From positions 1 through 35,588 of the IMG/VR virus record IMGVR_UViG_3300032278_000049: DNA of 35,588 bases; one strand, 5' to 3'. This document shows positions 1,153 through 17,829 of this stretch, piece by piece. The stretch comes from a virus. The translations under genes were made by a program, and so were the position numbers. The stretch's first letter is position 1; each line of letters begins with the position of its first letter. The notes under the pieces are model-generated. The model was not told the origin of the DNA and did not search any database. It was given only the letters and a program-made list of their open reading frames with translations.

Positions 1153-2969
1153 TGGCGTTAACAAAATTACCAGCAGGATCTATTATTGATGGCACGATAA
1201 CAAGTGCAAAAATTGCTAATGCAACTATACTTGGGGAAGATATAGGAACAGGATCAATTTCAGCAGATAAAATAAACACAACATTAGATATTTCATCGCA
1301 CACAATAACATTACCTCAAGATTTAATAGGTCATAGAGAATTAGATATAACATTTACATCACCAGCAGACGATGATAAATTTTTACAAATATCATCTGCC
1401 GGAGTTCTACAATGGTCCGCACCTGGAACGTATCCTATTACATATGCCGCATTATCAGGTGTTATACCTGCTGGTCATATAGCAAATGAAACTATTACGT
1501 CAGCACACATTGAAAATTTAACTATAGCAGATGAAGATATAGCAGATGGTACAATATCGGGGGTAAAATTAAATGCAACCTTAGATTTATCTACAAAAAC
1601 GATAACTTATCCTACTGATAATTCATTAACCAATTTAACAATAACAGGCGATCTACACATAACAGGCACAACAACCGAAATAGATACCCAAAATTTATTA
1701 GTTAAAGATAACATAATAGTAATTAATGATGAAGAAAGCGGAGTCGGAGTAACTGCCGGAGCCGCAGGTATTGAAATTCATAGAGGCCCAGGTCAAGATA
1801 AAGCCACCATTATGTGGAACGAAACGAATGATAAGTTCGAATTTAAAATAGGTGCCTCAGATGCTGTCTTAGTTTTTGATAATGTTGAACCTCCTGATTC
1901 TTCTGTAGGATATGATCAAATAATAATAAACAATTTAACTGATCCTGGGCCCGGAGTTAATACGTTTTTAGAATCAGATGGAACCGGTAATTTTAATTTA
2001 ACAGAAATACAAATAGGTGGCATTACATTAGATGGCGATGTTACCGGTCCAGTGGATGATAATTCATTAGGAAATTATTCTGTAACTGCAACGCATTTAC
2101 AAGATCATTGTGTTACATCATCTAAAATAGATACAACTCTTTCGTTTGTTGGAAAAACAATTATTTTAAATGCCGGAGATATATTATCTGCAATAAATGG
2201 AGGAGGCTATTTTAATATATCAAATCCCTATTTTAATGTTCCAGATGATTGTATCGATAGTTCAAAAATAAAAGATGGTTCTGTAACTGGTTTTAAATTA
2301 TCCGATACTTTAAATTTATCATCAAAAGCAATTATATGGCCCAACCTTCAAACTTTTAATCATGTTACAATAGAAGATTATTTAACAGTTAATAATATAT
2401 CTGTAATAAACAATACATTAGATGTTAATGATCAAGTAACAATTACCAATAGTGGTCTTAATGATGCATTAATAGTTAATAATTCATCACCTGCTAATAT
2501 TATGAAATTACAAAATAGTTCAACTGATGTTTTTGTAGTAGATAATAGCGGTGATGTATTAATTAAACAAAATCTATTTGTTGAAAAAAATATTCTTAAA
2601 AAATTAGGATTAGTAGTTGTAAATGGCACTACTGCAACTATAGATTTAGCTCTTGGTGACCATTTTGTATTAGAACTTGATGGTCTTACACAAGATATAA
2701 CAACATTGACAATAACCAATACAAGTTCAACTCCTAATATGATAACTACTTTTACTATGAAAGTTATTCAAGGTCCGGTAGACAGAGGGATTACATGGAG
2801 CGGAATATCTCATATTAAATGGCCAGATTCACTTGGAGATGGGTCATTAACAGGAATATTACCTCCTGTTATAACATCAGGAAATAATAAAGAAGATTTA
2901 TTTTCGTTTTTTACTCATGATAATGGAACTAGTTGGTATGGCCAAATACTTGGTATGGGTTATAGTTAA
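1152..2969 (+). CDS. Repeat-containing tail-fibre protein (605 aa)
   Basis: The start shares its A with the previous TAA. The protein carries at least four degenerate copies of a module with the pattern S-A/S-K-I ... G-T/S-I-S/T ... L-N-A/T-T-L-D/S ... K-T-I, for example around residues 10-55, 105-155, 310-345 and 365-400. It has many short beta strands and almost no charged helices. Such modules are typical of trimeric tail-fibre shafts in T4-like marine phages. The central part (TITGDLHITGTTTEID, residues about 160-180) resembles fibre segments preceding receptor-binding regions. The 3' end meets the convergent Nudix gene with overlapping stops and no visible terminator. Likely host-recognition fibre; receptor unknown. 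Confidence 0.7.
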   Translation: MALTKLPAGSIIDGTITSAKIANATILGEDIGTGSISADKINTTLDISSHTITLPQDLIGHRELDITFTSPADDDKFLQISSAGVLQWSAPGTYPITYAALSGVIPAGHIANETITSAHIENLTIADEDIADGTISGVKLNATLDLSTKTITYPTDNSLTNLTITGDLHITGTTTEIDTQNLLVKDNIIVINDEESGVGVTAGAAGIEIHRGPGQDKATIMWNETNDKFEFKIGASDAVLVFDNVEPPDSSVGYDQIIINNLTDPGPGVNTFLESDGTGNFNLTEIQIGGITLDGDVTGPVDDNSLGNYSVTATHLQDHCVTSSKIDTTLSFVGKTIILNAGDILSAINGGGYFNISNPYFNVPDDCIDSSKIKDGSVTGFKLSDTLNLSSKAIIWPNLQTFNHVTIEDYLTVNNISVINNTLDVNDQVTITNSGLNDALIVNNSSPANIMKLQNSSTDVFVVDNSGDVLIKQNLFVEKNILKKLGLVVVNGTTATIDLALGDHFVLELDGLTQDITTLTITNTSSTPNMITTFTMKVIQGPVDRGITWSGISHIKWPDSLGDGSLTGILPPVITSGNNKEDLFSFFTHDNGTSWYGQILGMGYS

Positions 2970-3397
2970 GCGGCTATTTGTTGTATATTTGTTGCTATAA
3001 TTTGTATTTTTTTAATAGCAGATTTATCATAAAAAACTAATTTAGCGCCTGAATGTAATGGCTTAGGCCATGATCCGATGTCTACCCAACAATATCCGCT
3101 AGACTCTTCGTTTAATATTGGGACAAATTCGTCATAACAAGCAATAACAAATGTTTTATAATTAAATCCATTTTCAGATTCAAATATATGTAAGGGATAT
3201 ATTTTATGTGAAACAGGAAGTTTCCCCATTTCTTCTTCTAATTCTCGTTCTAATGTTTCTAATGGCTGTTCGTCTTTTTCTGCTTTACCACCCCAAAATG
3301 CCCAAGTGCCAGAATGACTGACATTTTTTGATCGCATTTGAAGTAATATTCTACCAGTAGGTAAAGACAAAAAGATAGCACCTACTCCGCTAATCAT
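2966..3397 (-). CDS. Nudix hydrolase
   Basis: Hydrolyses nucleoside-diphosphate-linked compounds; the substrate here is unknown. A complete Nudix box (GX5EX7REUXEEXG) lies at residues 37-58: G37, E43, R51-E52-L53, E55-E56, G58. It is preceded by SGTWAFWGGK, which is typical of the family. I place the start at the ATG at 3397, giving 143 aa, because GGAG lies 9 nt upstream and the ATG overlaps the gp15 stop as ATGA. A longer frame starting with TTG at 3412 would destroy that ribosome binding site arrangement. It is coupled downstream of gp15 and convergent with the fibre gene. T4 itself encodes a Nudix enzyme (NudE), so a phage Nudix gene is not surprising. Confidence 0.9.
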   Translation of the reverse strand: MISGVGAIFLSLPTGRILLQMRSKNVSHSGTWAFWGGKAEKDEQPLETLERELEEEMGKLPVSHKIYPLHIFESENGFNYKTFVIACYDEFVPILNEESSGYCWVDIGSWPKPLHSGAKLVFYDKSAIKKIQIIATNIQQIAA

Positions 3398-5658
3398 AAA
3401 TATAATCTCCAATAGCCGGCTGGATAGTTTGCTTCAATTGCACTAATCCATTCTGTACCATTCCATTTCCATTTTTTACTATCTTGTGCATTTTGTGTAA
3501 ATTTTATAGTTCCCCAGGTATGTCCTGCGGTTTCACATGTAGATTTAACAGCATGTTCATTATACGGACAACCTATATATGCGGCACTCGCATTAAAATC
3601 TACAATCCATTCAGAGCCAGTTTGGCTATATTGTATTATATCGTACTTATTGCCATGTGTTCCGTGAACATCTGAAGAAACAATATGTGCATTATGTGCT
3701 ACTCCAATGAATGTATGCCCACCAAATATTAAACCATATATATGTTTTACAGTAGGTGATGTTTGTTGGGTCCAAGATACACCATTATTTGATGAAGTAG
3801 CAATAACTCCATTATTTCCTGCGGTAACAAAAACTCCATTACCAAAAGTAACTTCATAAAACCCGTCTGTTATTCCTGAATTCCTTGAAAACCATGTAAT
3901 TCCATCAGTAGATGTAAGAATAGCATCATTTGCTCCTGTAACAACAAATGTATTATTTCCATATGCTATTCCTCTAAGATGTTCTGATGATCCAGAAGTT
4001 CTTTCAGTCCAGGTAACTGCATCTGGTGAAGTATAAATTTTACCATTCCAAGTTACAAAAACATATAAACTATTTGCATATATAACATCAAATATTGTTA
4101 CCGTAATCGGTGTCGATTGTTCTGTCCATGTTACACCATCTGGAGAAGTAATAAGAGCTCCACCAGCACCTACTACAACATATTGGTTATTGCCCCATGT
4201 AACAGCTCTAAGTTGGTTTGTAAATGCATTTGGAGGCGTTTGAGGAGACCAAGTAATTGCATCAGGTGATGTAAGAATAGTTGCATTATTTCCTACCGCA
4301 ATCCATTGATCATTTCCATATGTAATACCATACATACCTTCGTTTGTACCTGAAGTTCTTTCAGTCCATGCCTCTCCGTGTCCTGGTGAACTTTGGATTT
4401 TACCAGTCATTCCGACACTTACAAATAAACCATTATAGTGAGCAACATCATTTAAATGAGTGCTTGTAGCAGATGTTTCCGAAGCCCACTCTACTCCTAC
4501 AGTTCCGCTTCCTCCACCTCCTGGCCAATACGATCCTGTAGGAATTTCATCTAAAACCAAATATCGTTGACCATCGGCCGCCGCTGGTAATGTACCATCG
4601 CCAGGATAAGCAAGTGTAGGATTTATAATAGCATCAACAGTAGCAGTTTCTGCTGAGTTTGAAGGTAAAGTATCTGTATCTATAGTTGCTGTAAGTTGTG
4701 GACCTGTTGGCTCAGATAAAGTACCATATACTTGAAAATTTGCTTCACTTTCTACTAAAGCATCCATTAATTTAACTTGACTAACTCCTGTTCTAAAGTC
4801 AGCACCTCGTTCTAGGAATAAATCTTCCCAAGTATCGGTTGTAACAGATCCATCTTTATCTAATAATGTTAATAAATTGCCTGTAAAGTTTACAACTTTA
4901 TCACCATATGTTGTTACCATATAACTAGAATCAGCACCTGGAATAGATCCGTCATTTCTAAATTGCGCCATTTCTGCAGATGATTTTGCAGTAACAACAG
5001 AAGAAATAATTTGATGAATAAGTTTTTGTTTTGTAACTCTTGCCGGAACAGTTAAATGTATAGGCATTTTAAACATCAATGTTGCAATGTCTATAGTATC
5101 TTCTACTCCTGTGGGTATGGATCTATTTGTCCATTGTACACTAGTTAATTCTACAATAGACAATCTTGTCCAATCAAATGGATTATCTGTAGCATTAATA
5201 TCAACAGAAGGATTATATAAAGTTAAAATTTGTTCTAATAATTGAAATTTTTGATCACTATTACTTGTCCATATATCTACTTGCATTGTTAAATTATAAG
5301 GAACAGGCATGTGTCGTTCAATTTGATATGTGTTACCCAATTCATTATCATATTCATTAGTTGTATAATTAAACTTTTTTTCAAACACCTGTACTTTATC
5401 TACTTCCATAGGTGCTCGTCTAGATTCTGGACTTATCTCTAATGCTTGAACCCAACAACTAATAAATGGTGCAGAATTTATTACATTTTCTGAATTTTGC
5501 TTTAAAATATGCATTGCCATGCGGTTAGCATCACCGTATCTAACAGGGACAGTTCTATATGTTTCTGTTTCTCTATCTATTTCAATTTGGAAATTAGCAA
5601 ATAATCGCATAAATTGTTGCAAATATCTGCGAGTTTGTTTATCGTAAAAAAAATCCAT
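3394..5658 (-). CDS. 15: gp15-like tail sheath stabiliser fused to a beta-propeller (754 aa)
   Basis: Residues 1-270 resemble T4 gp15, the proximal tail terminator that caps the sheath and joins tail to neck: FFYDKQTRRYLQQFMRLFANF parallels the T4 start, followed by the VPVRYGD and LQVDIWTSN-type strands. T4 gp15 is 272 aa. Here about 480 residues follow. Residues 345-385 form a small Gly-rich phage module (GDGTLPAAADGQRYLVLDEIP). Residues about 388-668 hold seven repeats of about 40 aa with the pattern YGN-x-x-F/W-V-x-V-G-x-x-x-x-I-x-T/S-S-x-D-G-x-x-W-T, which predicts a seven-bladed BNR/sialidase-like propeller. A Trp-rich domain ends the protein. The start shares one base with the gp14 stop. 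The gp15 part is fairly sure; the propeller's role is unknown, perhaps surface display at the neck. Confidence 0.8.
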   Translation of the reverse strand: MDFFYDKQTRRYLQQFMRLFANFQIEIDRETETYRTVPVRYGDANRMAMHILKQNSENVINSAPFISCWVQALEISPESRRAPMEVDKVQVFEKKFNYTTNEYDNELGNTYQIERHMPVPYNLTMQVDIWTSNSDQKFQLLEQILTLYNPSVDINATDNPFDWTRLSIVELTSVQWTNRSIPTGVEDTIDIATLMFKMPIHLTVPARVTKQKLIHQIISSVVTAKSSAEMAQFRNDGSIPGADSSYMVTTYGDKVVNFTGNLLTLLDKDGSVTTDTWEDLFLERGADFRTGVSQVKLMDALVESEANFQVYGTLSEPTGPQLTATIDTDTLPSNSAETATVDAIINPTLAYPGDGTLPAAADGQRYLVLDEIPTGSYWPGGGGSGTVGVEWASETSATSTHLNDVAHYNGLFVSVGMTGKIQSSPGHGEAWTERTSGTNEGMYGITYGNDQWIAVGNNATILTSPDAITWSPQTPPNAFTNQLRAVTWGNNQYVVVGAGGALITSPDGVTWTEQSTPITVTIFDVIYANSLYVFVTWNGKIYTSPDAVTWTERTSGSSEHLRGIAYGNNTFVVTGANDAILTSTDGITWFSRNSGITDGFYEVTFGNGVFVTAGNNGVIATSSNNGVSWTQQTSPTVKHIYGLIFGGHTFIGVAHNAHIVSSDVHGTHGNKYDIIQYSQTGSEWIVDFNASAAYIGCPYNEHAVKSTCETAGHTWGTIKFTQNAQDSKKWKWNGTEWISAIEANYPAGYWRLYL

Positions 5659-6641
5659 TACACATCACTCTTTGGTTTTATTACACTAGATAATCCTTGT
5701 TTCGATTTAACATCTTCACCAGGCATAGATATTGTATCAGGATTGTTTGTGAATCTTCGTTGCGAAAATACTCTTGATTCCCAACTATCATCATTAGGAT
5801 TATGATCTGCTGTATATGTCCACAATGTTCCTACACGTTTATATAATCTATTAGGTGTAAAATCAGTTCGTACAAAGAAATCACCTTCAGTTGGATTAGC
5901 AGGAAATTGTGTTCCGCTTGCAGGTGATATCGAATCATAATCAAATAAATGACCAGTATCTAATATACCTGTATTCTCTTGTTCTGCGGCTTCAATAATA
6001 GTTTCAGATATTTCAATTTCAGATGCATATGTACTAAGCACATCAGTGTCAGTTTCCATAATATCTTGAAATTCTTGTGTGTCGTTCATAGGACCTACTT
6101 TCACACGCCATATATGGGGCCACCAAGATTGAGAAAATCCTTCTGATGCTCTATTAGCATCTTCAACTACATAAAATTTATTAATACCATTTAAACTTGG
6201 ATCTAACAATGTATCATCACGTAAATGTGGTAATTCTAATACATCACCTGACATTAGTTTTCTGCCAAGTTTTGCTATCATATCATTAATGTGAAATGAT
6301 ACAAATAAATTATCTGCTGTTAAAAAGAAACCAAATTGGGAAAGATCAAAATCATTATCACTTACATTATATAAGCCACGTAATTCATAAATATCAGGAT
6401 CATATTTTCTATCCCTATTTTCCATTAATAACATGTCTTGTATTGTTACTTCAGACGCACCATCTGTTGATGCATAGTGATTAGGTTGGGTTGGATCATT
6501 TTGTTCACCAACATTTTCTGGTCCTAAATATTTGTGTACTAAAAAGGCAGTCCCGCCCACTTCAAATTGTTCTCTAATGTTTGAATCAAAAAAGTTATAA
6601 TCGTTGGACTTTTCTTGTCGCCAAAGGCTAAGTCGGGGCAT
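5658..6641 (-). CDS. 14: gp14-like neck protein (327 aa)
   Basis: Neck protein of T4-like phages that joins the head portal to the tail. The N-terminal half has the features I know from cyanophage gp14: YNFFDSNIREQFEVGGT, HKYLGP, ENRDRKYDPDIYELRGLYNV, LSQFGFFL and RKLMSGDVLELPHL. The C-terminal part carries an extra Gly/Pro module (residues about 245-275, FPANPTEGDFFVRTDFTPN) seen in other phage structural proteins. The ribosome binding site AAGGAA lies 8 nt before the ATG, and a late promoter-like GATAAATA lies just upstream. It heads a unit gp14-gp15-Nudix on the minus strand, away from gp13, which is on the plus strand 14 kb off. In T4 these neck genes are adjacent. Confidence 0.85.
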   Translation of the reverse strand: MPRLSLWRQEKSNDYNFFDSNIREQFEVGGTAFLVHKYLGPENVGEQNDPTQPNHYASTDGASEVTIQDMLLMENRDRKYDPDIYELRGLYNVSDNDFDLSQFGFFLTADNLFVSFHINDMIAKLGRKLMSGDVLELPHLRDDTLLDPSLNGINKFYVVEDANRASEGFSQSWWPHIWRVKVGPMNDTQEFQDIMETDTDVLSTYASEIEISETIIEAAEQENTGILDTGHLFDYDSISPASGTQFPANPTEGDFFVRTDFTPNRLYKRVGTLWTYTADHNPNDDSWESRVFSQRRFTNNPDTISMPGEDVKSKQGLSSVIKPKSDV

Positions 6642-6661
6642 ATATCATTCCTTATTCTTAA

Positions 6662-6669
6662 TATTTATC
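6662..6669 (-). promoter_or_regulatory. T4-type late promoter element before gp14
   Basis: On the minus strand the sequence reads CGATAAATATT about 20 nt upstream of the gp14 start. It differs from the T4 late promoter TATAAATA in the first base. The same GATAAATA form occurs before gp18 (24200) and before the acidic-repeat gene (30922). Function inferred from motif and position. Confidence 0.6.
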
Positions 6670-6691
6670 GAAATGTTGTGCCCTGATCAAA

Positions 6692-7648
6692 TTAAACAAT
6701 AGTATCTATAATAACTTTTGTGATATCATATGGATTAGCATTAGATGCAGGTCGTCTATCTTCTAAGTAACCGGTTGTATAATTAGACTCAACTGTCTCA
6801 AGAGGTATTCTTACACTTGCACCTCTATCACCTTCGCCGTAAGTAAACTGATCAATAGATGCTGTCTCGTGTTTACCAGTCAATCTTTGATCATTATCTT
6901 TTCCATATACTGCTATGTGTTCGGCATGTCGGTTTTTCATTTTATCCAATATATCATGAAAAATACCTAACTGAGAATTGTTTCTCATCTCGTCTGTGCT
7001 AAAGTTTGTGTGCATACCAGATCCATTCCAATCGCCCTTAATAGGTTTAGGTTCTATATTAATATCACAGCCATGCTCTTCTGCAACCCTCTCTAATATA
7101 TACCGTGACATCCAAAGATCATCACCAGCATTCTTTGCACCTTTACTAAACACTTGATATTCCCATTGGCCAAGAGCAACTTCGGCATTTGTGCCAGTGA
7201 TATCAATCTCTGCATCAATACATGCATCCATATGATCCGAAACTACTTTTCTTCCTGCAACGTTACTTGCACCTATACCACAATAATACGGTCCTTGAGG
7301 TCCAGGCTCACCATTTTCCCAGCCTAGTGGTTTTCCAGTGCCGTTTGTTATAAAGTATTCTTGTTCAAATCCAAACCAATAATCTTCAGAATCCTCAAAT
7401 GTTATTGCTTCTCTTTTTTCAGTCGAACACATAACAAGCCAACCTGCTGGTTGGAATGGGTTATGATAAAGTTTAACAGGAGTTAAAGTAACATCAGAAT
7501 GATTGCCAGGAGCTTGATCGGTAGATGAACCATCATAACCCCAGATTGGAACTAGTTCTAACTTATTAATATCACCATCGGCGACTTTTGTTTTACTTCG
7601 TAATTGCTCATTAGCATCGAGCCATACGTATTCTAGTACTGTCTTCAT
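6692..7648 (-). CDS. glnII: Glutamine synthetase, type II (GSII)
   Basis: Makes glutamine from glutamate, ammonia and ATP. At 318 aa it is a little shorter than cellular GSII (about 340-370) but looks complete. Signatures in order: EYVWLDANEQLRSKTKV (6-22), WGYDGSSTDQA (36-46), FGFEQEY (92-98) with metal-binding glutamates E95 and E97, GPQGPYYCGIGA (116-127), TGTNAEVALGQWEYQ (151-165), GDWNGSGMHTNFST (205-218) with H213, RLTGKHET (255-262) and GYLEDRRPASNANPY (293-307). All expected catalytic blocks are present, so it is probably active. It stands alone on the minus strand. Its ATG overlaps the stop of a possible leader ORF. It may redirect host nitrogen to nucleotide synthesis during infection (inference). 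GSII is the eukaryote/Rhizobium/actinomycete type, not the common bacterial GlnA. Confidence 0.93.
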   Translation of the reverse strand: MKTVLEYVWLDANEQLRSKTKVADGDINKLELVPIWGYDGSSTDQAPGNHSDVTLTPVKLYHNPFQPAGWLVMCSTEKREAITFEDSEDYWFGFEQEYFITNGTGKPLGWENGEPGPQGPYYCGIGASNVAGRKVVSDHMDACIDAEIDITGTNAEVALGQWEYQVFSKGAKNAGDDLWMSRYILERVAEEHGCDINIEPKPIKGDWNGSGMHTNFSTDEMRNNSQLGIFHDILDKMKNRHAEHIAVYGKDNDQRLTGKHETASIDQFTYGEGDRGASVRIPLETVESNYTTGYLEDRRPASNANPYDITKVIIDTIV

Positions 7649-7716
7649 ATAGTTTTCCTTTTAAAAACGCTTAATTTTATGCTGAAAATATAAGCACCAT
7701 TTCCAAAATTTTCCAT
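7645..7716 (-). CDS. Possible leader peptide of glutamine synthetase (23 aa)
   Basis: A 23-codon frame starts at ATG 7716, preceded by TATAGGAAAAATAG with AGGA well placed as a ribosome binding site. It encodes MENFGNGAYIFSIKLSVFKR followed by KTI, and its TGA overlaps the glutamine synthetase ATG as ATGA. The overlap suggests translational coupling. The second ribosome binding site (AAAAGGAAAA) used by glutamine synthetase lies inside this frame. No run of Gln, Glu or Asn codons is present, so a classical attenuator is not indicated. It may be only the by-product of a duplicated leader. Confidence 0.4.
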   Translation of the reverse strand: MENFGNGAYIFSIKLSVFKRKTI

Positions 7717-7747
7717 CTATTTTTCCTATAAAATGCTTAATTTTATG
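7669..7747. repeat. Duplicated 13-bp leader element upstream of glutamine synthetase
   Basis: GCTTAATTTTATG occurs twice in the same orientation, at 7669-7681 and 7735-7747. Each copy is preceded by a similar TTTTCCT...AAAA stretch. On the minus strand each copy therefore ends in an AGGAAAA ribosome binding site, one in front of the leader ORF and one in front of glutamine synthetase. It looks like a tandem duplication of the 5' leader or a paired binding site. Confidence 0.6.
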
Positions 7748-7800
7748 GCGTTTTTCTCATTGAGTATTTACCTCATTATAATATAATTTAACTAGTTACG

Positions 7801-7818
7801 AGAAATTTAAAAATTTCT
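7801..7818. promoter_or_regulatory. Palindrome in the divergent intergenic region
   Basis: AGAAATTT and AAATTTCT form an inverted repeat with 2 bp between the arms, in the middle of the 264-bp region between the divergent glutamine synthetase and diiron-oxidase operon. It could be an operator. The loop is too short and the stem too AT-rich for a terminator, and chance in AT-rich DNA is possible. Confidence 0.3.
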
Positions 7819-7846
7819 GCTAAAATACATAGCATTGTGTATAAAA

Positions 7847-7854
7847 AATAAATA
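7847..7854 (+). promoter_or_regulatory. Late promoter-like element of the diiron-oxidase operon
   Basis: AATAAATAC lies 58 nt upstream of the first start (7913). The same AATAAATA form occurs before gp13 (20850) and before the last gene of the window (35323), so it fits this phage's late promoter style. No convincing sigma70 -35/-10 pair was seen here. If real, it places this metabolic operon under late control. Confidence 0.45.
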
Positions 7855-7912
7855 CGTATATGGAAGCCCTTTTCTAGGAAACCACGTTAATGATCAAAAA
7901 GCGAGGTAACGT

Positions 7913-8194
7913 ATGTTTCTGACAGATCACTTACAAAATGCGGCTAAGTCAGCAGGCCGACCATGCAACTTATCATATTATTTTTATCATGCATGGATAG
8001 CACTTAAATGTGGAACAATTTATTATTATATAGCATTCTTCTCTCACGTACATGCAATTTTTCCATTTGTTCATGCAGGATTTGGACTTGCGGAAATGAT
8101 TGTTGCTCGGACCAATGTAATTCGTAAAAGTATTCCTGACTGGGAAGGCTGGAAAGAATTAGATAATTGGGACGACGAAAAATATGCCTCTTGA
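7913..8194 (+). CDS. Small membrane protein, first gene of the metabolic operon (93 aa)
   Basis: Begins with a good ribosome binding site (GAGGTA, 5-6 nt before ATG). The sequence has MFLTDHLQNAAKSAGRP, then NLSYYFYHAWIALKCG and one or two hydrophobic segments (residues about 28-65, with HVHAIFPFVHAGFGLA), and ends with a polar WEGWKELDNWDDEKYAS tail. The layout of an F-x-D-H start, a Y-x-x-H-W/A helix and a His-rich hydrophobic helix recalls small bacterial proteins of the DUF6356 type. That is resemblance from memory, not a match I can prove. Its 3' end overlaps the diiron-oxidase gene by 11 nt, which ties it to the operon. Possible membrane partner for the enzymes; function unknown. Confidence 0.7.
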   Translation: MFLTDHLQNAAKSAGRPCNLSYYFYHAWIALKCGTIYYYIAFFSHVHAIFPFVHAGFGLAEMIVARTNVIRKSIPDWEGWKELDNWDDEKYAS

Positions 8195-8933
8195 TAATTT
8201 TTTAGAACGATTAGATAAAGAATTACTTAATCATTCTGTTATAACTGATAACAAATATTGTAATTGGTTTAAGCAAGCAGAACTATCTCCGGTCGATGTA
8301 TTTTATTTTACACAACAATTTTCTGTTTTTTCAAATCAATTTATTATCGCCCAATTGAATAAAGTTATAAATGCTGTAGATTTAGAGGAAGCAAGAGCAG
8401 GAAAAGAAGTATTAGCAAATGAGCTAGGAGTTGCGTTTAACGACGGTTCGGTAGAAGGTGGTACATATAAATTTCATCATGCACATTTCGAATGGTTAGT
8501 TAAATTTGCTAAACATCTAGGTTTATCATTTAATGATATAGGAAAAAGAAAACATGGATCCCCTGCAACATTATTTTATTGTGATGAATTAATTAGAATA
8601 TATGGTAATGAAGATTTTAATGTATCTGCAGGTGCTAGTTTTGCAGTAGAAAATTGGGCGGCGGCTGGTTTTTGGAAAGATTTAATTGCTGGTTTAGAAA
8701 ATTTTAAGGAAAGTCATAACCTTAGCATGTCCTTAGGTTTTTTTACATGGCATGACAAGTTAGAAGAACAACATGCTGAACATACAAGAGAAGAAATGAT
8801 CTCATTGTACAATGAACATAATCTTAATGAAGATTTGTTTATTAAAGCAGGCAATGAAATGTTAGATGGTGTTAAAGCATTTTGGGTAGGGTTAGACCAA
8901 GAACGAATAACAAGGGCATATTATGGACATTAG
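8184..8933 (+). CDS. Heme-oxygenase-like diiron oxidase (iron-containing redox enzyme family, 249 aa)
   Basis: An all-helical protein of the TENA/heme-oxygenase-like fold, with the residue layout of the HDO group (known members UndA, SznF, BesC and CADD). Candidate iron ligands are E80 (in LANELGVAFNDG), H98/H101 (HHAHFEW), E156 (AVENWAAAGFW), and H190, E194 and H197 in FFTWHDKLEEQHAEH. HDO enzymes activate O2 for oxidative C-C or C-N cleavage or N-oxygenation, and UndA-like ones decarboxylate fatty acids. The substrate cannot be read here. This is not the biliverdin-forming heme oxygenase, which is a separate gene at 22329. It overlaps both neighbours (11 nt each), so it is the core of a coupled operon with VOC, dehydrogenase and hydrolase genes. 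Confidence 0.75.
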   Translation: MPLDNFLERLDKELLNHSVITDNKYCNWFKQAELSPVDVFYFTQQFSVFSNQFIIAQLNKVINAVDLEEARAGKEVLANELGVAFNDGSVEGGTYKFHHAHFEWLVKFAKHLGLSFNDIGKRKHGSPATLFYCDELIRIYGNEDFNVSAGASFAVENWAAAGFWKDLIAGLENFKESHNLSMSLGFFTWHDKLEEQHAEHTREEMISLYNEHNLNEDLFIKAGNEMLDGVKAFWVGLDQERITRAYYGH

Positions 8934-9336
8934 AGGGTTGCATCATTATGCATGGAAATGTGCTAATGTCAATGAAACTAAAAAGTTTTATAGTGGTATT
9001 TTAAATCTACCACATGTACATACTATAAAAAAAGATTATGTTCCAAGTACAGGAGAATATGCTCCATATGAACATATATTTTTTAAAATGGATGAAGGTA
9101 GTCATATTGCTTTTTTCGAAACAGGTGACGGAAAAGGGACAACTACCGATTGTGATGATTGGATAGTTCATTTTGCATTCCGTGTTGATACAAAAGAAGA
9201 TGTAGATAAATGGTATGAAAAATTAAAAGATTATAAGATAGATGTTATAGGACCTACAAATCATGACGATTGGATTTATAGCATTTACTTTTTTGATCCA
9301 AATGGTTTAAGACTAGAAATTACAACAGAATTATAG
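8923..9336 (+). CDS. VOC superfamily metalloenzyme (glyoxalase/dioxygenase-like, 137 aa)
   Basis: Two beta-alpha-beta modules of the vicinal oxygen chelate fold. Metal ligand positions are filled: H8 at the end of the first strand (GLHHYAWKC), H83 at the start of the second module (WIVHFAFRV) and E132 (LRLEITTEL). H61 and E66 (HIAFFE) are also candidates. FDPNGLRLEI is a family hallmark. Members isomerise, open or oxidise substrates through a divalent metal. The specific reaction is unknown. The start overlaps the diiron-oxidase gene by 11 nt and the stop is followed at once by the strong AGGAGG of the next gene. It probably acts in the same pathway. Confidence 0.9.
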   Translation: MDIRGLHHYAWKCANVNETKKFYSGILNLPHVHTIKKDYVPSTGEYAPYEHIFFKMDEGSHIAFFETGDGKGTTTDCDDWIVHFAFRVDTKEDVDKWYEKLKDYKIDVIGPTNHDDWIYSIYFFDPNGLRLEITTEL

Positions 9337-9343
9337 GAGGAAA

Positions 9344-10393
9344 ATGATACTTGCTATTATTGGCGCTGGACGAATAGGTCTTGCTGTATACAAATTATTA
9401 AAAGATGATTTTGATATTAAAATGTGTGACACCAGAGTTGCGGCAGAAACTTATGGAACAACGTTACCAGTTATTGATTTTGTAGATGCTTCTGATATTA
9501 AAATGTTAAGTTCGTTTTTAGATTACTCAGATGTTGTTCTTTCGGCAACTAACTACAAATTTAATAAAGATATTTTACAACTTGCTTTAAAAAAAGGAAA
9601 ACATTATGTTGATTTAACTGAAGATGTTGCAACAACAAACTGGATTAGCGAGTATGCAAAAGATTCTAGTGTATCAGTTATTCCTCAATGCGGATTAGCA
9701 CCAGGAGCAATTAATATTATTGGAGGACACTTAGCAAGTCAATTTGAAAAACCTGTATCACTTAAACTTAGAGTAGGTGCTTTGCCTTTGTATCCTACAA
9801 ATAGAATGTCATATTATTTGAGTTGGAATACCGCTGGTTTATTAAATGAATATGTTAATATGTGTGATGCCATTGTTAATAGAGGAAAAGCAAAAGTTAA
9901 GCCACTAGAAGATTTAGAAAAAATAATAATAGATGGTAATGAATACGAAGCATTTAACACATCAGGAGGAGTTGGGACACTAACTGATACATATTGGCTT
10001 AAAATAGATGAGTTAGATTATAAAACCATTAGATATCCTGGACATGTAGATTATTTACGTTTTATGTTTGAAGACTTAGGACTTAAAAATAATATAGAAT
10101 TAGCAAATGATATTTTTAATCAAAATGTACCAACAACAACAGATGATGTAGTAATATTTTTTGTAAAAGCAACAGGATATAACAATGGAGATCTTATAGA
10201 AAAAAATTGGGTATGTAAAATATATGGTAAAGATGGTATGACCGCAATTGAACGTGCAACGGCTAGTGGAGTTGCAGAAGTATTGTGCATGTTAAAAAAT
10301 AAAAAATTAAGCACTGGTTTTGTTAAGCAAGAGGACATACTATTTGATGATTTTATTGAAGGTAAGTTTGGAGGCATTTATGGGACAACATGA
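9344..10393 (+). CDS. Saccharopine dehydrogenase / lysine 6-dehydrogenase-like oxidoreductase (349 aa)
   Basis: The N-terminal NAD(P)-binding Rossmann motif is GAGRIG (residues 7-12) after a hydrophobic strand. Further family marks are HYVDLTED, PQCGLAPGAINI (residues about 123-135), which matches the GxAPG loop of the saccharopine/lysine dehydrogenase family, and TIRYPGH. The length fits the family (about 350-400). Such enzymes oxidise or reduce amino-acid-derived imines, for instance lysine to allysine/piperideine carboxylate, or form saccharopine. A strong AGGAGG ribosome binding site stands 5 nt before the ATG. The 3' end overlaps the next gene by 14 nt. It suggests that the operon modifies an amino acid or polyamine, but the substrate is inferred only at class level. 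Confidence 0.85.
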   Translation: MILAIIGAGRIGLAVYKLLKDDFDIKMCDTRVAAETYGTTLPVIDFVDASDIKMLSSFLDYSDVVLSATNYKFNKDILQLALKKGKHYVDLTEDVATTNWISEYAKDSSVSVIPQCGLAPGAINIIGGHLASQFEKPVSLKLRVGALPLYPTNRMSYYLSWNTAGLLNEYVNMCDAIVNRGKAKVKPLEDLEKIIIDGNEYEAFNTSGGVGTLTDTYWLKIDELDYKTIRYPGHVDYLRFMFEDLGLKNNIELANDIFNQNVPTTTDDVVIFFVKATGYNNGDLIEKNWVCKIYGKDGMTAIERATASGVAEVLCMLKNKKLSTGFVKQEDILFDDFIEGKFGGIYGTT

Positions 10394-11198
10394 AAATTGG
10401 ACAGTAGAATCTCCTACATTTAGAGGCCATCCAAGAATATTACAAATAATACAAGGATCTTGGATGAGTTCAACATTAGAATTAACTCAATTTTGTGATG
10501 GTAGTGCATACCTTAGTCATATGGAACGAATACGAGGTGCAAGAGGACAAGCATTAGACGAATCTATATATACTACCCCGTTAATGTATCAAGGAGTAAG
10601 CGATAAATTTTTAATTTGGTGTGCGAATATTCCTGCGTTTCCTTATGAATATAAAACAGACTTTGAAGCAGAAGTTGGTGTAGTTGTAGATGATGTACCA
10701 ATGGGAATAAAAGCAGAACATGCAGGAAAATATATTAGATATGTTACAATTATTAATGATATTAGTCTTCGTGCGTTTTGTGCCGAAGAAATACAAACCG
10801 GGTTTGGTTTTTTACAAGGAAAACCACATAGTGCATTAGGAAAATGGAGTGTACCAGTTTCAGCATTAGAACAAGATATATGGCACGATAATAAATTTCA
10901 TGGTACTATGATTATTGAACTTAATAGCGAACAAGTAGGTAAAATTCATACAAGTAAAGAAATGCATTTTGATTTTGCACAATTAATAGCTCATGCGGCA
11001 AAAACTAGAGCATTATCAAAAGGTACATTAATTGGAAGTGGAACAGTAAGTTCGAGTGATCTCAATGATGGGTTTGGTTGTTTAATGGAAAGAAATATAG
11101 TTACAGATAATAAAGATTATTTAAAATCAGGAGACAAAGTAAAAATGTATATAGAAGAATTACCTAATCATCTTTTAATAGAACAAGGAGTAGTATAA
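10380..11198 (+). CDS. Fumarylacetoacetate hydrolase (FAH) family enzyme (272 aa)
   Basis: FAH-fold enzyme acting on 2-oxo or 1,3-dicarbonyl acids (hydrolase, hydratase, isomerase or decarboxylase). Candidate metal ligands are E96 and E98 (DFEAEVGVVV) and D127 in TIINDISLR. Further marks are GFLQGKPHS and KGTLIGSGTVSS near the C-terminus, the usual FAH ending. I start at ATG 10380, where GGAGG lies 5 nt upstream. The frame is open back to a TTG at 10320, but that part lies inside the dehydrogenase gene. It may process the product of the upstream oxidative enzymes. The N-terminal 60 residues (GSAYLSHMERIRGARG) resemble FAHs of the fungal/bacterial ring-cleavage type. Confidence 0.88.
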   Translation: MGQHENWTVESPTFRGHPRILQIIQGSWMSSTLELTQFCDGSAYLSHMERIRGARGQALDESIYTTPLMYQGVSDKFLIWCANIPAFPYEYKTDFEAEVGVVVDDVPMGIKAEHAGKYIRYVTIINDISLRAFCAEEIQTGFGFLQGKPHSALGKWSVPVSALEQDIWHDNKFHGTMIIELNSEQVGKIHTSKEMHFDFAQLIAHAAKTRALSKGTLIGSGTVSSSDLNDGFGCLMERNIVTDNKDYLKSGDKVKMYIEELPNHLLIEQGVV

Positions 11199-11503
11199 TG
11201 AACTGGATTGGTATAATATTTCTCATTAATACCGTATGGGTTACCTTACCCCCTACATTTGATTCAAAGGGTCGATTAACAGAACCACCGGGTGTGACAT
11301 TTGGACTTAATGAAAAATATTTTGACAACGAAGAAAAATGTTGGGAATATTTTGATAAACATCCATCCTTTGAACTTTTAGATGTATATAGTCGTAATCA
11401 TTATGATATTGAATCTGAAATGAAAAGATATGTAATAAAACATGTTGGTACTGCTTATGTTACCTGCAAACCTCACCTAAAATGGTATAAAGATGATAAA
11501 TAG
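11198..11503 (+). CDS. Small exported or membrane-anchored protein (101 aa)
   Basis: The ATG shares its A with the TAA of the FAH gene, so it is the last gene of the operon. The first 18 residues (MNWIGIIFLINTVWVTLP) form a hydrophobic segment that may be a signal peptide or anchor. The rest is polar, with two Cys (C48, C95) and many aromatic residues. Many small phage proteins of this kind sit in the cell envelope. No family recognised. It ends 17 nt before the 3' end of the convergent odd tRNA. Confidence 0.7.
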   Translation: MNWIGIIFLINTVWVTLPPTFDSKGRLTEPPGVTFGLNEKYFDNEEKCWEYFDKHPSFELLDVYSRNHYDIESEMKRYVIKHVGTAYVTCKPHLKWYKDDK

Positions 11504-11519: not shown

Positions 11520-11611
11520 TGGCTCTGGGAGTAGGATTCGAACCTACACGCCCCTCTGCAAAGGGACAATACGCAAACAACGCACCACGTCTACCGTTTC
11601 GTCATCCCAGA
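11520..11611 (-). tRNA. Unusual long-variable-arm tRNA, apparent anticodon GUU (Asn)
   Basis: On the minus strand a full cloverleaf can be drawn: acceptor TCTGGGA/TCCCAGA, U8, three-base-pair D stem ACG/CGT with loop AAACGGTAGA, anticodon stem GTGCG/CGTAT with loop TTGTTTG, a 21-nt variable arm with a six-pair stem GTCCCT/AGGGGC, T arm GTAGG-TTCGAAT-CCTAC, discriminator G73 and an encoded CCA. The D arm is of tRNA-Leu type. The loop puts GUU at 34-36 (bases 11578-11576), which would read Asn codons AAC/AAU. Bacterial tRNA-Asn never has a long variable arm. U37 and U33-G34 context are odd, and the anticodon stem has two G-U pairs. It lies downstream of an AsnRS-like gene on the same strand. 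tRNA or tRNA-like element: sure. Identity: uncertain. Confidence 0.8.
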
Positions 11612-11742
11612 GTCCGTTCTTCTATAAGATGTTCCTCTTGATGTTCTGCAAGTTTATCAAGGTCTGTAAATGTTTCGTCGCATTCAAAGCAACTAGCAAA
11701 TCCATATTTCTTATAAAAATCGTTATCATAATCTTTATTCAA
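11602..11742 (-). CDS. 46-residue C2H2 zinc-finger protein
   Basis: A 47-codon frame follows the aaRS-like gene, starting with TTG at 11742 so that TTGA overlaps that gene's TGA. A weak ribosome binding site (CGGA) stands about 7 nt upstream. Residues 18-38 read CFECDETFTDL then DKLAEHQEEH, which fits the classical finger exactly: C-x2-C-x3-F-x5-L-x2-H-x3-H. Classical C2H2 fingers bind DNA, RNA or protein; the partner here is unknown. The last codons and stop (11604-11602) lie inside the 5' end of the odd tRNA, so RNase P cutting at 11611/11612 would remove the stop codon from this message. The unusual start and short length keep the confidence moderate; the finger itself is a precise match. 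Confidence 0.6.
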   Translation of the reverse strand: MNKDYDNDFYKKYGFASCFECDETFTDLDKLAEHQEEHLIEERTLG

Positions 11743-12617
11743 AGTAATTCCGCTTTTTTCATTCCTGCAATCAAACGTGTTATTCCTATTCCGCCTCCAT
11801 AACGAGGTTTAAAATCATAAGATAAAAATTCTTCAAGTTCTGCTTCTACTCTTTCTTTACCAAAGAGATCATACAATAAACTGGCATACCCACCATCTGA
11901 TATTGTATGGAATTGATGTTTCATTTCTTCTACATCACTAGATCGTTCAGCACTACCTATTGTTTCCATGCCACCTATGATGACATCGCATTTGTTAGCC
12001 TGTCGGTCTTTTCCTGTACTTGTCATTCCATCCATTTTCATGTTCCAAAATGGACTTGTTGATTCAGGAAAATGAGTTAAGAAAAATACGTCACCGTATT
12101 CCGCATACATTCTACCTTCGTGGAAATCTGTTAATTCATTATTTTCGGCCGCATAATGTGCAACCATACTCATATAATTTCCACCCGGGAAATCTAATCC
12201 TTCGTATGGTGCTCTACCGTGATCGGTTTTAAAGCCTAAATGTGTTAATAAATCACTTTCCATTTTAAGTAAGTTTGGAAACTCACCTGGTGCCTCAAAT
12301 TCGAACATTGGAAAAATAAGTTCGTGTCTACCTTCTGTGGGATTTTGTTCTTGTCTATAACTTGTACTAACACAATAACAACCTGGTAAATCAGGTTTTG
12401 TTAGTAATTCGTATTCAAGCCACATTTGACCTGTTTGAGGTAGTGGCCATATCTTGCCGTTGTAATTGTAAGTCGCAACTGTAGTTGGATCCTCACAAGC
12501 GGCTAATATGCTTAATCTGTTTTGGGTATGTACTTCTTGAAAATTTAGATTATCGAAAAAGGAACGAAGACGCTTAACCACTGTTGAAAATTCCGTCGGG
12601 TCAATTAATTGTGTCAT
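11739..12617 (-). CDS. AsnRS/AspRS-like class II synthetase core without anticodon domain (292 aa)
   Basis: Class II aminoacyl-tRNA-synthetase fold of the Asp/Asn/Lys group. Motif 1 region is at residues 10-35; LPQTGQMWLEYELL (58-71) equals the QSPQxYKQ-like block; motif 2 is YRQEQNPTEGRHELIFPMFE (87-106) with ATP-contacting R88; DVIIGGMETIGSAERSSD (211-228) is the amino-acid end of the pocket; motif 3 is GGGIGITRLIAGM (274-286) with R281. The OB-fold anticodon-binding domain is absent, so the protein is half the size of AsnRS. The best known parallel is the archaeal AsnRS paralogue that acts as asparagine synthetase (AS-AR, about 290 aa). It may make asparagine, or charge the odd tRNA next to it. 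It starts at ATG 12617; CGGAG lies 13 nt upstream, a rather long spacing. Confidence 0.85.
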   Translation of the reverse strand: MTQLIDPTEFSTVVKRLRSFFDNLNFQEVHTQNRLSILAACEDPTTVATYNYNGKIWPLPQTGQMWLEYELLTKPDLPGCYCVSTSYRQEQNPTEGRHELIFPMFEFEAPGEFPNLLKMESDLLTHLGFKTDHGRAPYEGLDFPGGNYMSMVAHYAAENNELTDFHEGRMYAEYGDVFFLTHFPESTSPFWNMKMDGMTSTGKDRQANKCDVIIGGMETIGSAERSSDVEEMKHQFHTISDGGYASLLYDLFGKERVEAELEEFLSYDFKPRYGGGIGITRLIAGMKKAELL

Positions 12618-13025: not shown

Positions 13026-13958
13026 ATGAAACAAAGCACACAATTTAAAACATTTGAAAATTTTGTAAAAAAATTACAAAATAAAATATGTTATGCCTTA
13101 GAAAACATAAACGTAGAACAAGACGGAGCTGGCAAATTTATAGAAGATAGATGGCTTCGCCCCGAAGGCGGTGGAGGTATAACTAGAGTTATGCAACCAG
13201 AAAAATCTTCTTTTGCTGTTTCAACAATTTTTGAAAAAGCGGCTGTTAACTTTTCTAATGTAACAGGTCCTATTATACCTGGCATGACAAAAGCAGTTGA
13301 AATGGAAGGCGATGAGTTTAGTGCATGTGGTTGTTCTCTTATACTACACCCAACTCATCCCAAAGTTCCTACTGTTCATATGAATATTAGGTATTTTGAA
13401 ACTAATGCAGGACAAAGTTGGTATGGAGGAGGAATAGATCTAACACCATTTTATCCATATCCTGAAGACTTTGTATTTTTTCATAAAACATTAGCAAAAG
13501 CATGTAACAAAGCAATACCAAATAGTTATGCACCTTTTAAAACTTGGTGTGATGAATACTTTACTATTAAACATAGAAATGAAATGCGAGGTATTGGAGG
13601 AGTCTTTTTTGATTATTTAGATGGTACAGATAAAGCCAATTTTAAATTAACTAAGTCTGTCGGCAATGCATTTCTTAAAGCATATCTACCTATAGTTGAA
13701 AATAGATCACAAGAATCTTATACTAGTTATGATATGGAGTTTATGAAAATTCGCAGAGGTAGATATATAGAATTTAATCTTGTATATGATAGAGGTACTC
13801 TTTTTGGATTAAAATCAAATGCTAGAGCAGAGTCTATATTGTGTTCGATGCCACCTTACGCAGATTTTATATATAATTGGACTCCTAAGATGGACGGCCC
13901 GCATCAAGAAATGATTCAATATTATCAGCCAAAAGATTGGTTGACATTAGATCTGTAG
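13026..13958 (+). CDS. hemF: Oxygen-dependent coproporphyrinogen III oxidase
   Basis: Converts coproporphyrinogen III to protoporphyrinogen IX with O2 in heme synthesis. The 310 residues match the HemF family end to end: WLRPEGGGGITRVMQ (residues 43-57), FEKAAVNFSNVTG, LILHPTHPKVPTVHMNIRYF, WYGGGIDLTPFYP, WCDEYFTIKHRNEMRGIGG, RRGRYIEFNLVYDRGT and SILCSMPPYADFIYNW. It looks complete and active. The ATG stands 4 nt after the tRNA-Cys CCA and has no ribosome binding site in the window before it except tRNA sequence, so translation may begin on a nearly leaderless message after tRNA processing. It probably supplies heme for the phage heme oxygenase at 22329 (inference). Confidence 0.95.
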   Translation: MKQSTQFKTFENFVKKLQNKICYALENINVEQDGAGKFIEDRWLRPEGGGGITRVMQPEKSSFAVSTIFEKAAVNFSNVTGPIIPGMTKAVEMEGDEFSACGCSLILHPTHPKVPTVHMNIRYFETNAGQSWYGGGIDLTPFYPYPEDFVFFHKTLAKACNKAIPNSYAPFKTWCDEYFTIKHRNEMRGIGGVFFDYLDGTDKANFKLTKSVGNAFLKAYLPIVENRSQESYTSYDMEFMKIRRGRYIEFNLVYDRGTLFGLKSNARAESILCSMPPYADFIYNWTPKMDGPHQEMIQYYQPKDWLTLDL

Positions 13959-16124: not shown

Positions 16125-16268
16125 ATGATGTATAGAATCAAAATAGGCCAACAAACAGTTTTCAAAACAAATGATCTCAAAGAAGCATTTAAGGTTATCA
16201 AAGATATCTTTAATAAAGGTCATGAAGATGTTTATTTGTATGGTGGTAGGTTAGGTTCATGGAGATAA
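16125..16268 (+). CDS. Small protein upstream of the radical SAM gene (47 aa)
   Basis: The frame is open further up, but that part lies within tRNA-Gly, so I start at ATG 16125 (a second ATG follows). The product reads MMYRIKIGQQTVFKTNDL, then an amphipathic helix EAFKVIKDIFNKG, and ends DVYLYGGRLGSWR. No ribosome binding site stands between the tRNA CCA end and the ATG, only 6 nt. It overlaps the radical SAM gene by 10 nt, so the two are coupled. It could be a small substrate or partner of that enzyme, or an unrelated small phage protein. Confidence 0.55.
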   Translation: MMYRIKIGQQTVFKTNDLKEAFKVIKDIFNKGHEDVYLYGGRLGSWR

Positions 16269-17137
16269 CATTTAACATACCCTTAGGTATAGATATAGAA
16301 TTTAATGAAGCATGTAATGCTAGTTGTGTATACTGTCCTGTTAGCATTAATCCTCGACGTAAAAATAAACATATGTCGTTAGAAGATAGCGATAGTATTT
16401 TTAAAAAATTAGAAAAACAAACTATAGAATTTATTTCGTTTTCACTTTTTAACGAACCGTTATTAGATCCATTTTTTAATCAAAGGATAGAACAGTTACG
16501 AAAATACAAATTATATAAAACACTATCTCTTCATACAAACGGTATATTATTAACACCAAAAATATTAGATTTTTTAAAAGAATCTGATTTAAAACATATG
16601 GTTTTTAATTTTCCTTCAGCAATAGAAGAAGAATGGTCAACCCAAATGGGTATGCATAAAAAGCATTTTTTACCTACATTAGATAATATACTTTCATTTT
16701 GCGAGTCCTTTAAAAACGTGCAAGTTACAATAGAAATGAACCAAAAATTATTCTATGATAAGCCAAAAGAATACAGAGAAGGACTTACAAAAATGTTCGA
16801 TGAAAGGGTGTATTTTGATTTAGCCCCTTTAGTTAATCAAGCAGGTAATATTGTTAATGAACATGTTGCTTCTCCGCCTGTTAAAAGAACATTTAAACAT
16901 GCTTTTTGCAGAGATGGCAAATTATTAAATAGTTTAACAATAAACCATAACGGCGATTGTCGTTTATGTTGTAAAGACTATCATAAAAAATATACAGTCG
17001 GAAACATACTTACTGATAGTGTTAAAGACATTTTAACATCAAAGGAATCTAAAAGATTAATATCACAAATATATGGTAGTAAACCAAAAGATAAAGATCT
17101 TTTATGTAAATCTTGTACAAACTTTTTAACTATATAA
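16259..17137 (+). CDS. Radical SAM / SPASM-type enzyme (292 aa)
   Basis: The radical SAM cluster motif CNASCVYC (C19, C23, C26) follows IDIEFNEA, typical for this family. Next come FNEPLLDP and TNGILLTP, standard barrel motifs. The C-terminal part has FCRDGK, GDCRLCCKDY, GNILTD and a last CKSC, the Cys layout of a SPASM domain binding extra Fe-S clusters. Such enzymes modify peptides or proteins or act on small molecules through the 5'-deoxyadenosyl radical. GGTTCATGG gives no strong ribosome binding site; coupling to the preceding small gene is likely. It is followed by a small acidic gene and a 2OG oxygenase. Substrate unknown. Confidence 0.88.
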   Translation: MEITFNIPLGIDIEFNEACNASCVYCPVSINPRRKNKHMSLEDSDSIFKKLEKQTIEFISFSLFNEPLLDPFFNQRIEQLRKYKLYKTLSLHTNGILLTPKILDFLKESDLKHMVFNFPSAIEEEWSTQMGMHKKHFLPTLDNILSFCESFKNVQVTIEMNQKLFYDKPKEYREGLTKMFDERVYFDLAPLVNQAGNIVNEHVASPPVKRTFKHAFCRDGKLLNSLTINHNGDCRLCCKDYHKKYTVGNILTDSVKDILTSKESKRLISQIYGSKPKDKDLLCKSCTNFLTI

Positions 17138-17141
17138 AATA

Positions 17142-17279
17142 ATGAAAGAAAATTTTAGTATAACCAAAACACTTGTTGAAAATGAAGACGGCGAGTTAGT
17201 CATTGAATTTACAGAAGACGAATTAGATGACTTAGGTTTAGAAAACGCAGAAGACATATTCGATGATAAAGATAATTGA
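17142..17279 (+). CDS. Small acidic protein (45 aa)
   Basis: Starts 4 nt after the radical SAM stop and overlaps the 2OG oxygenase start by 17 nt. It is strongly acidic (MKENFSITKTLVENEDGE, then LVIEFTEDELDDLGLENA). The pattern DGELVIEF-TEDELDDLGL resembles small AbrB/SpoVT-like proteins common in T4-like marine phages. I considered a RiPP precursor, but it lacks a Cys-, Gly- or Ser-rich core. Function unknown. Confidence 0.65.
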   Translation: MKENFSITKTLVENEDGELVIEFTEDELDDLGLENAEDIFDDKDN

Positions 17280-17829
17280 TGATATATTTGAGGAGCAATT
17301 CCTTGATTATTTAAATCATACATTTAAATATTTGCATTATAAATTTTATTTAGATCATAATAATGTTTTTGAAGAGCATCATAATGAAACACCCTTGATG
17401 TTAAGTAATTCTGGACCTAAACAATTTGATAGTCCCCCATATGAATATATGTTCAAAACGTTCTTAGAGGCAGACAAATCTATTAATAAAAACATAACAG
17501 TAAATGATAGATATATTCATTTAAGTCCTTATGGAGCAACAGGTCCCTTGCATCATGATACACATATTCAAAACGATTTAAGTTTTCTATTTTATCCTTC
17601 TATTTGGGATCCTAAATATGAAGGAAGTACACTTATTAGGCCAGACGAAGGGGACGATCAAATTATAGAATATAAACAAAATCGTCTTGTTATATTTGAT
17701 GGAAGTTTTTGGCACCAAGCAATGCATCATACCAATCCTAATCATAGATTTACTGTAGTTTTTCTTACACATTTTATTACGAGACAAAATTACGAAGGAA
17801 CATATCCCCAATATGATATAGTGGACTAA
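17263..17829 (+). CDS. 2OG-Fe(II) oxygenase, prolyl-4-hydroxylase-like (188 aa)
   Basis: Small double-stranded beta-helix oxygenase using Fe(II), O2 and 2-oxoglutarate. Iron ligands: H97-x-D99 in GPLHHDTH and a distal His (H151 in DGSFWHQAMHH), with R162 in NPNHRFTVVFL as 2OG anchor. The strand ending VVFLTHF fits the family. Such genes are common in marine T4-like phages and may hydroxylate proteins or nucleic acid. The start lies inside the preceding acidic gene, and the stop overlaps the stop of the convergent membrane protein gene by 3 nt. Confidence 0.85.
   Translation: MIKIIDDIFEEQFLDYLNHTFKYLHYKFYLDHNNVFEEHHNETPLMLSNSGPKQFDSPPYEYMFKTFLEADKSINKNITVNDRYIHLSPYGATGPLHHDTHIQNDLSFLFYPSIWDPKYEGSTLIRPDEGDDQIIEYKQNRLVIFDGSFWHQAMHHTNPNHRFTVVFLTHFITRQNYEGTYPQYDIVD

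Follow-up and report, generated by a model that had tools for sequence, protein, structure and literature searches.

A phage gene cassette with relatives of homogentisate-pathway enzymes

Introduction

The 35,588-nucleotide stretch of viral DNA analyzed here (the window) raises the question of what a compact group of enzyme genes at positions 7913-11503 might do for a phage. The stretch is a 35.6-kb fragment of a marine myovirus that encodes a terminase and the proteins of the tail sheath and tail tube, and the nearest named tail sheaths are those of jumbo phages. A first-pass annotation had described the group as an operon whose enzymes look like a complete pathway acting on an amino acid or a relative of one, with lysine among the candidates. 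We examined the gene layout, the family membership and predicted fold of each product, and the neighborhoods of related genes in phages and bacteria.

A six-gene cassette in a myovirus fragment

Six open reading frames are tightly packed on one strand in this region, with a glutamine synthetase gene diverging from them.

7913..8194, + strand: small membrane-like protein, weakly DUF6356-like (93 aa; Pfam PF19883 at 14.8 bits, under the cut-off of 24.4)
8184..8933, + strand: HDO-like protein (249 aa; candidate ligands E80, H101, E156, H190, E194 and H197)
8923..9336, + strand: ring-cleaving dioxygenase of VOC type, homogentisate 1,2-dioxygenase family (137 aa; match to PDB 9u42)
9344..10393, + strand: saccharopine-dehydrogenase-superfamily enzyme (SDH), lysine 6-dehydrogenase type (349 aa; NAD-binding GAGRIG; PDB 3abi)
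10380..11198, + strand: FAH-type C-C hydrolase, N-terminal domain absent (272 aa; match to PDB 3lzk)
11198..11503, + strand: small ORF with a hydrophobic N terminus (101 aa; kept in the related phage contigs L002 and L003)
6692..7648, - strand: GlnII-type glutamine synthetase, divergent neighbor (NF041605 at 326 bits, under the cut-off of 500)

The genes overlap by 1-14 nt at four of the five junctions, with a gap of 7 nt at the remaining one, and for this reason the six genes are almost certainly co-transcribed, in agreement with the operon first proposed. For the FAH gene, the list of open reading frames gives a TTG start at 10320; we prefer the ATG at 10380, which has GGAGG immediately 5′ and agrees with the relatives. 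Homologs of the leader gene open the cassette in five other phage contigs (L002, L003, L006, L007 and L073). The whole cassette is under purifying selection across related phages (dN/dS 0.03-0.44), with values of 0.04-0.12 for the leader gene. Searches of Pfam, PHROGs and curated models with the last small ORF gave no match.

The late-type promoter once assigned to this unit is not borne out. Sites resembling TATAAATA occur at chance level (143 found, 147 expected in shuffles), those upstream of 7913 carry one mismatch at best, and sigma-70-like sites are equally unremarkable (23 found, 22.4 expected). A late promoter for the cassette was rejected because site counts are not above chance. The family calls made for the four enzymes are upheld by domain models and, for the HDO-like protein, by its fold.

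A ring-cleaving dioxygenase and a trimmed hydrolase

The VOC protein scores above the cut-off for PF00903 (52.8 bits), and its closest solved relative is an Acinetobacter protein whose PDB entry, 9u42, is titled homogentisate 1,2-dioxygenase (phmmer E 2.4e-25, 36% identity). Comparison of folds leads to the same entry, with a VIA Z of 16.1 across 135 residues; the next row scores lower by about two units. The two proteins share this fold and matching His/His/Glu residues, whereas the phage form is shorter (137 versus 182 aa) and belongs to a sister sub-clade. In an alignment of 25 phage and bacterial rows H8, H83 and E132 are invariant, and by VOC convention we take them to be the 2-His-1-Glu metal triad; H51 and H114 are invariant as well. 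Assignment as a ring-cleaving dioxygenase of the 9u42-type family is well supported. A role as a glutathione or fosfomycin enzyme was considered and rejected, since the FosA/B/X models score far under their cut-offs and 9u42 clearly ranks first.

Cellular relatives, which offer evidence independent of the 9u42 title, were drawn from 398 Pseudomonadota genomes, a phylum judged from a Methylophilaceae centre. HPPD lies within 1.5 kb of the VOC relative in 10 of 29 cellular loci, and FAH in six of them. Gene orders include HPPD-VOC-FAH-MaiA (L107), FAH-VOC-HPPD (L108, L109, L112 and L120) and VOC-FAH (L122), while an Enterobacter plasmid carries VOC-MFS-FAH-MaiA. Other plasmid relatives, which are nearer to the phage VOC and alike in their identity to it, adjoin FAH (Variovorax RA8), fahA (Paraburkholderia) or alpha/beta hydrolases. 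The family tree splits into two halves with full support (100/100), and the phage copies form one clade (100/99), sharing their half with the copies of Variovorax SRS16 and Sagittula. They fall outside the sub-clade of HPPD operons, in its sister sub-clade, where the Variovorax and Sagittula enzymes lie beside alpha/beta hydrolases or a semialdehyde dehydrogenase. Because of this placement, the substrate of the phage enzyme may be another dihydroxy-aromatic; that it is homogentisate we infer from the company of HDO, FAH and HPPD genes.

The FAH protein matches PF01557 (100.7 bits) and the bacterial FAH structure 3lzk, with E 3.4e-44 as a single sequence and 6.9e-84 as a profile. It shares 41% identity and a cluster with the FAH encoded in an operon of SAR324 bacteria, where the gene order is HDO-HPPD-HGD-FAH. 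Residues D40, H47, E96, E98, D127 and R131 are invariant in seven rows and K148 is conserved; their spacing matches D126/H133/E199/E201/D233/R237, which we take to be the equivalent positions of mouse FAH. Judged by its sequence, the protein comes nearest to the fumarylacetoacetases of bacteria; the catalytic set is kept and the N-terminal domain is absent. It scores 32.8 bits against the fumarylacetoacetase model TIGR01266 (cut-off 375), and the SAR324 operon FAH, of the short 3lzk-like bacterial type, is likewise under this cut-off at 31 bits. These family matches agree with the earlier proposal that the VOC and FAH enzymes would open and hydrolyze an oxidized product.

An HDO sub-family linked by gene neighborhood to tyrosine catabolism

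Sequence models place the HDO-like protein below their thresholds, with 20.6 bits for PF14518 (cut-off 28.9) and 24 bits for the CADD model TIGR04305, also under its cut-off, and a phmmer search of the PDB gave zero matches up to E 1. An AlphaFold model (pLDDT 89), built like our other structure models from phage sequence rows only, has a clear heme-oxygenase-like all-helical fold. Its best fold matches include FlcD, HrmI, BesC, PqqC and CADD (Z 18-20.6), with VIA Z values of 20.6 for 3bjd, 20.4 for FlcD, 20.1 for BesC and 18.5 for CADD. The predicted fold is therefore like that of the HDO superfamily (FlcD, BesC, HrmI, PolF, CADD and UndA; Z 18-20), but no sequence-level relative in the PDB and no assigned reaction for the sub-family were found. 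Among the candidate ligands, E156, H190, E194 and H197 align with BesC and are invariant, so that an H-x3-E-x2-H motif and a helix glutamate are common to both proteins. E80 is also invariant, and H101 is kept in 19 of 20 rows. Passages of a review of HDO enzymes (PMC13108848) that treat a 3H/3C motif and tyrosine-related HDO chemistry contained no link to homogentisate.

A scan of one genome per species yielded 42 matches, one of them on a phage contig in a metagenome-assembled genome (L016). For the tally of neighborhoods this copy and a short locus (L038) were left out and two plasmid copies were added, making 42 cellular loci. Within about 9 kb of the HDO gene, HPPD is present in 38 of these loci and a divergent homogentisate-dioxygenase-like cupin in 36. 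Many also contain fumarylacetoacetase, and a Kovacikia plasmid locus has an acetoacetate-CoA-ligase-like gene and an aminotransferase in addition. In cyanobacteria and SAR324, HDO genes lie in homogentisate operons. The HDO tree calls for one or two origins of its seven phage copies, near SAR324.

Our leading guess is that the HDO enzyme carries out an oxidative step on phenylalanine, tyrosine or an aryl-pyruvate, perhaps as a pterin-free phenylalanine hydroxylase, which would fit an operon that otherwise begins at tyrosine. The classical hydroxylase (PF00351) occurs in none of 35 HDO genomes, although its base rates of 7/194 in cyanobacteria, 17/199 in Planctomycetota and 0/52 in SAR324 show that it is rare in these phyla, and hence this co-occurrence test has no power. 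A bolder proposal, which we hold only tentatively and regard as somewhat doubtful, is that the sub-family represents an unrecognized pterin-free aromatic amino-acid oxygenase (for example, converting phenylalanine to tyrosine) supplying the homogentisate pathway of cyanobacteria, SAR324 and Planctomycetota. Phages would have acquired HDO along with the VOC-type homogentisate dioxygenase and a FAH in trimmed form, the three making up a portable kit for catabolism of aromatic amino acids.

A second context for the HDO family is seen in Gloeothece (L008, 6896-9791), where genes for a 2OG-Fe dioxygenase and for a PLP enzyme of cysteine-desulfurase-like type adjoin it and HPPD is not near. A relative of this PLP enzyme is encoded at 11583-12848 of L041.

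The dehydrogenase and nitrogen genes

SDH matches PF16653 and PF03435, both above cut-off, and aligns with PDB 3abi (E 1.7e-21) over NAD-binding and saccharopine-C domains; we take 3abi (file name PH1688) to be a lysine 6-dehydrogenase. The two-domain architecture is alike in both, whereas the sequences are distant and the phage gene sits in a context of aromatic and nitrogen metabolism. Cellular relatives are proteobacterial proteins of the lysine-6-dehydrogenase type (40-45% identical), with Lrp/AsnC regulators adjoining them in most loci and an aldehyde dehydrogenase in several, a context known for lysine 6-dehydrogenases. A genome scan using an alignment of phage SDH sequences only gave no match.

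The enzyme probably releases ammonium and makes NADH, a yield that suits the glutamine synthetase or ammonium transporter gene found at the edge of the cassette. In L003 a transporter of the marine subtype replaces glutamine synthetase (5850-7064, - strand; TIGR03644 at 553 bits, above the cut-off of 514). SDH is nevertheless the odd part of the cassette and the least certain member of a pathway, and we know of no place for lysine 6-dehydrogenase relatives in the homogentisate pathway, which counts against reading the cassette in that way.

Recurrence in other phages

The same genes were sought in other viromes, and further viral contigs were found to carry the set. Among the close relatives, L002 and L005 have the full gene set and L003 lacks HDO. 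L006 carries the DUF6356-like gene, HDO and VOC followed by an AsnRS-like gene, with SDH and FAH absent, and L007 is cut inside HDO. SDH stands alone between purC and purF in L004, a phage-like contig in which GMP reductase, purC-like and purF genes surround it (5754-10547).

More distant arrangements add other enzymes. A T4-like phage (L073) has the DUF6356-like gene, indolepyruvate oxidoreductase, VOC and FAH in that order, followed by neck and tail-sheath genes, and L077 has the oxidoreductase, VOC and FAH before the contig end cuts it. This oxidoreductase is a fused indolepyruvate:ferredoxin form of about 1100 aa (L073, 4651-8004, NF009589 at 1142 bits; L077, 4708-8004). L059 begins with the tail of FAH and continues with HDO and HPPD, the latter above its equivalog cut-off (298 versus 277 bits), and then with the same neck and sheath genes as L073. 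Because the last 269 bp of L077 and the first 269 bp of L059 are 100% identical, the oxidoreductase, VOC, FAH, HDO and HPPD genes probably follow one another in a single phage type; the pieces were kept separate in our analysis. A jumbo phage, represented by a 322-kb contig, encodes VOC, FAH and a class III aminotransferase together, with HDO about 54 kb away.

Whether these genes are scattered in related phages thus receives a mixed answer. Membership varies, as L003, L004, L006 and the jumbo phage demonstrate, but genomes from at least two distinct phage lineages, and probably from a third, combine HDO, VOC and FAH. Searches of named phages with blastn and tblastn gave nothing useful beyond one weak SDH match, and PHROGs has no informative family for any of the four enzymes.

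One further HDO copy, on a contig of phage genes in a Methylophilaceae metagenome-assembled genome (L016; CAJIZS010000002.1), was considered as a host copy and rejected. Its neighbors match phage contig L006, and hence the contig is of phage origin and supplies no host gene; its presence in the bin may hint at the host or be a binning error.

A model for homogentisate-type catabolism

Our best reading is that the cassette is a phage auxiliary metabolic set, variable in content, for breakdown of phenylalanine and tyrosine by a homogentisate-type route, and we place its probability at roughly 0.7. Sequence, structure comparison and genomic context support the family identity of VOC and FAH, the fold of HDO and its link to HPPD and HGD; the substrates, the order of steps, the use of ammonium and the exact reactions of HDO and SDH are what we infer. 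In the proposed scheme, HDO would perform an O2-dependent step on phenylalanine, tyrosine or an aryl-pyruvate, ahead of homogentisate, which would be formed by HPPD of the host or of the phage, as in L059. The VOC enzyme would open the ring to give maleylacetoacetate, and FAH would convert the ring-opening product to fumarate and acetoacetate. SDH would remove the amino group as ammonium with formation of NADH, and the glutamine synthetase (or ammonium transporter) encoded at the cassette edge could direct this nitrogen to glutamine for nucleotide synthesis.

Compared with the bacterial pathway (HPPD, homogentisate dioxygenase, MaiA and FahA), the phage VOC and FAH proteins match the ring-cleavage and hydrolase steps, while the set is phage-borne and has two extra members, HDO and a gene of the lysine-dehydrogenase type. 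The cassette cannot be the complete pathway once supposed, in that HPPD, aminotransferase and isomerase genes are absent from the window. HPPD is also missing from the 322-kb jumbo contig and the 60-kb contig of L003, and L059 is the sole match to the HPPD model among 19 related records. In the phages without this gene, homogentisate would therefore come from the host or from another route. The phage cassettes also showed no maleylacetoacetate isomerase. Differences in gene content among close relatives also weigh against a homogentisate cassette.

A rival substrate is lysine or a lysine derivative, which SDH would convert to allysine for processing by HDO, VOC and FAH. The 40-45% identity of SDH to proteins encoded beside Lrp regulators and aldehyde dehydrogenase is consistent with this route, as is the action of BesC and HrmI, known HDOs, on lysine derivatives, although the likeness of these enzymes to the phage HDO is one of fold only. 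However, each of VOC, FAH and HDO has relatives and neighbors from aromatic pathways, and SDH is absent in L006, was not seen in the HDO/VOC/FAH cassettes of L059, L073 and L074, and is solitary among the purine genes of L004. We consider the lysine route improbable; the earlier view of an amino-acid catabolic operon stands with regard to an amino acid or relative as substrate, but the evidence favors phenylalanine and tyrosine via homogentisate over lysine.

Cleavage of a different ring, such as gentisate or a hydroquinone derived from hydroxybenzoate or hydroxyphenylacetate, is unlikely as well, if less so than the lysine route. In its favor, the phage VOC groups with proteins whose genes have flavin monooxygenase, alpha/beta hydrolase and semialdehyde dehydrogenase genes as neighbors, and members of the FAH family act on several acylpyruvates. 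Against it stand the tie between HPPD and HDO in cellular loci and in phage L059, and the fact that no aromatic-ring hydroxylase gene was recognized in the phage cassettes. The least probable view, marginally behind even the lysine route, is that the region is a hot-spot of unrelated metabolic genes that each aid the host separately, with adjacency meaning little. Gene swaps between relatives (glnII for amt, or loss of HDO or of SDH and FAH), the purine-gene setting of SDH in L004 and the many further metabolic genes in the window are all in keeping with such a hot-spot. Yet HDO, VOC and FAH occur together in separate phages with differing flanks, where HPPD, indolepyruvate oxidoreductase or aminotransferase genes are added.

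Precedent and other metabolic genes

If the homogentisate-type reading is true, it suggests that marine phages convert host aromatic amino acids to fumarate, acetoacetate and ammonium. Like other phage auxiliary metabolic gene cassettes, this one places host-type metabolic genes among tailed-phage structural genes and is swapped between relatives. Unlike them, it would represent a homogentisate pathway, for which we found no published report in phages among openly licensed papers. This agrees with the statement of the first-pass annotation that no phage pathway of this make-up was known, and the cassette would be the first phage-encoded catabolism of this type in that literature. Moreover, an uncharacterized HDO sub-family, widespread in cyanobacteria, becomes linked to tyrosine catabolism by gene neighborhoods in both cells and phages, which offers a candidate enzyme function that is directly testable.

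Several other metabolic genes are carried on the fragment. Two concern heme metabolism, namely a heme oxygenase (22329-22883; PF01126 at 65.6 bits) and an oxygen-dependent coproporphyrinogen III oxidase, hemF (13026-13958; NF003727 at 359.5 bits, above the cut-off of 297), which is 99.7% identical in L002. A class II AsnRS/AspRS-like catalytic core of 292 aa (11739-12617; phrog_29758) adjoins a tRNA-Asn gene at 11520-11611 and may be a tRNA-linked enzyme or one resembling asparagine synthetase; in L006 such a gene directly follows VOC. The window also encodes a radical SAM/SPASM protein (16259-17137), two 2OG-Fe oxygenase-like proteins (17263-17829 and 21622-22332) and a NUDIX protein (2966-3412).
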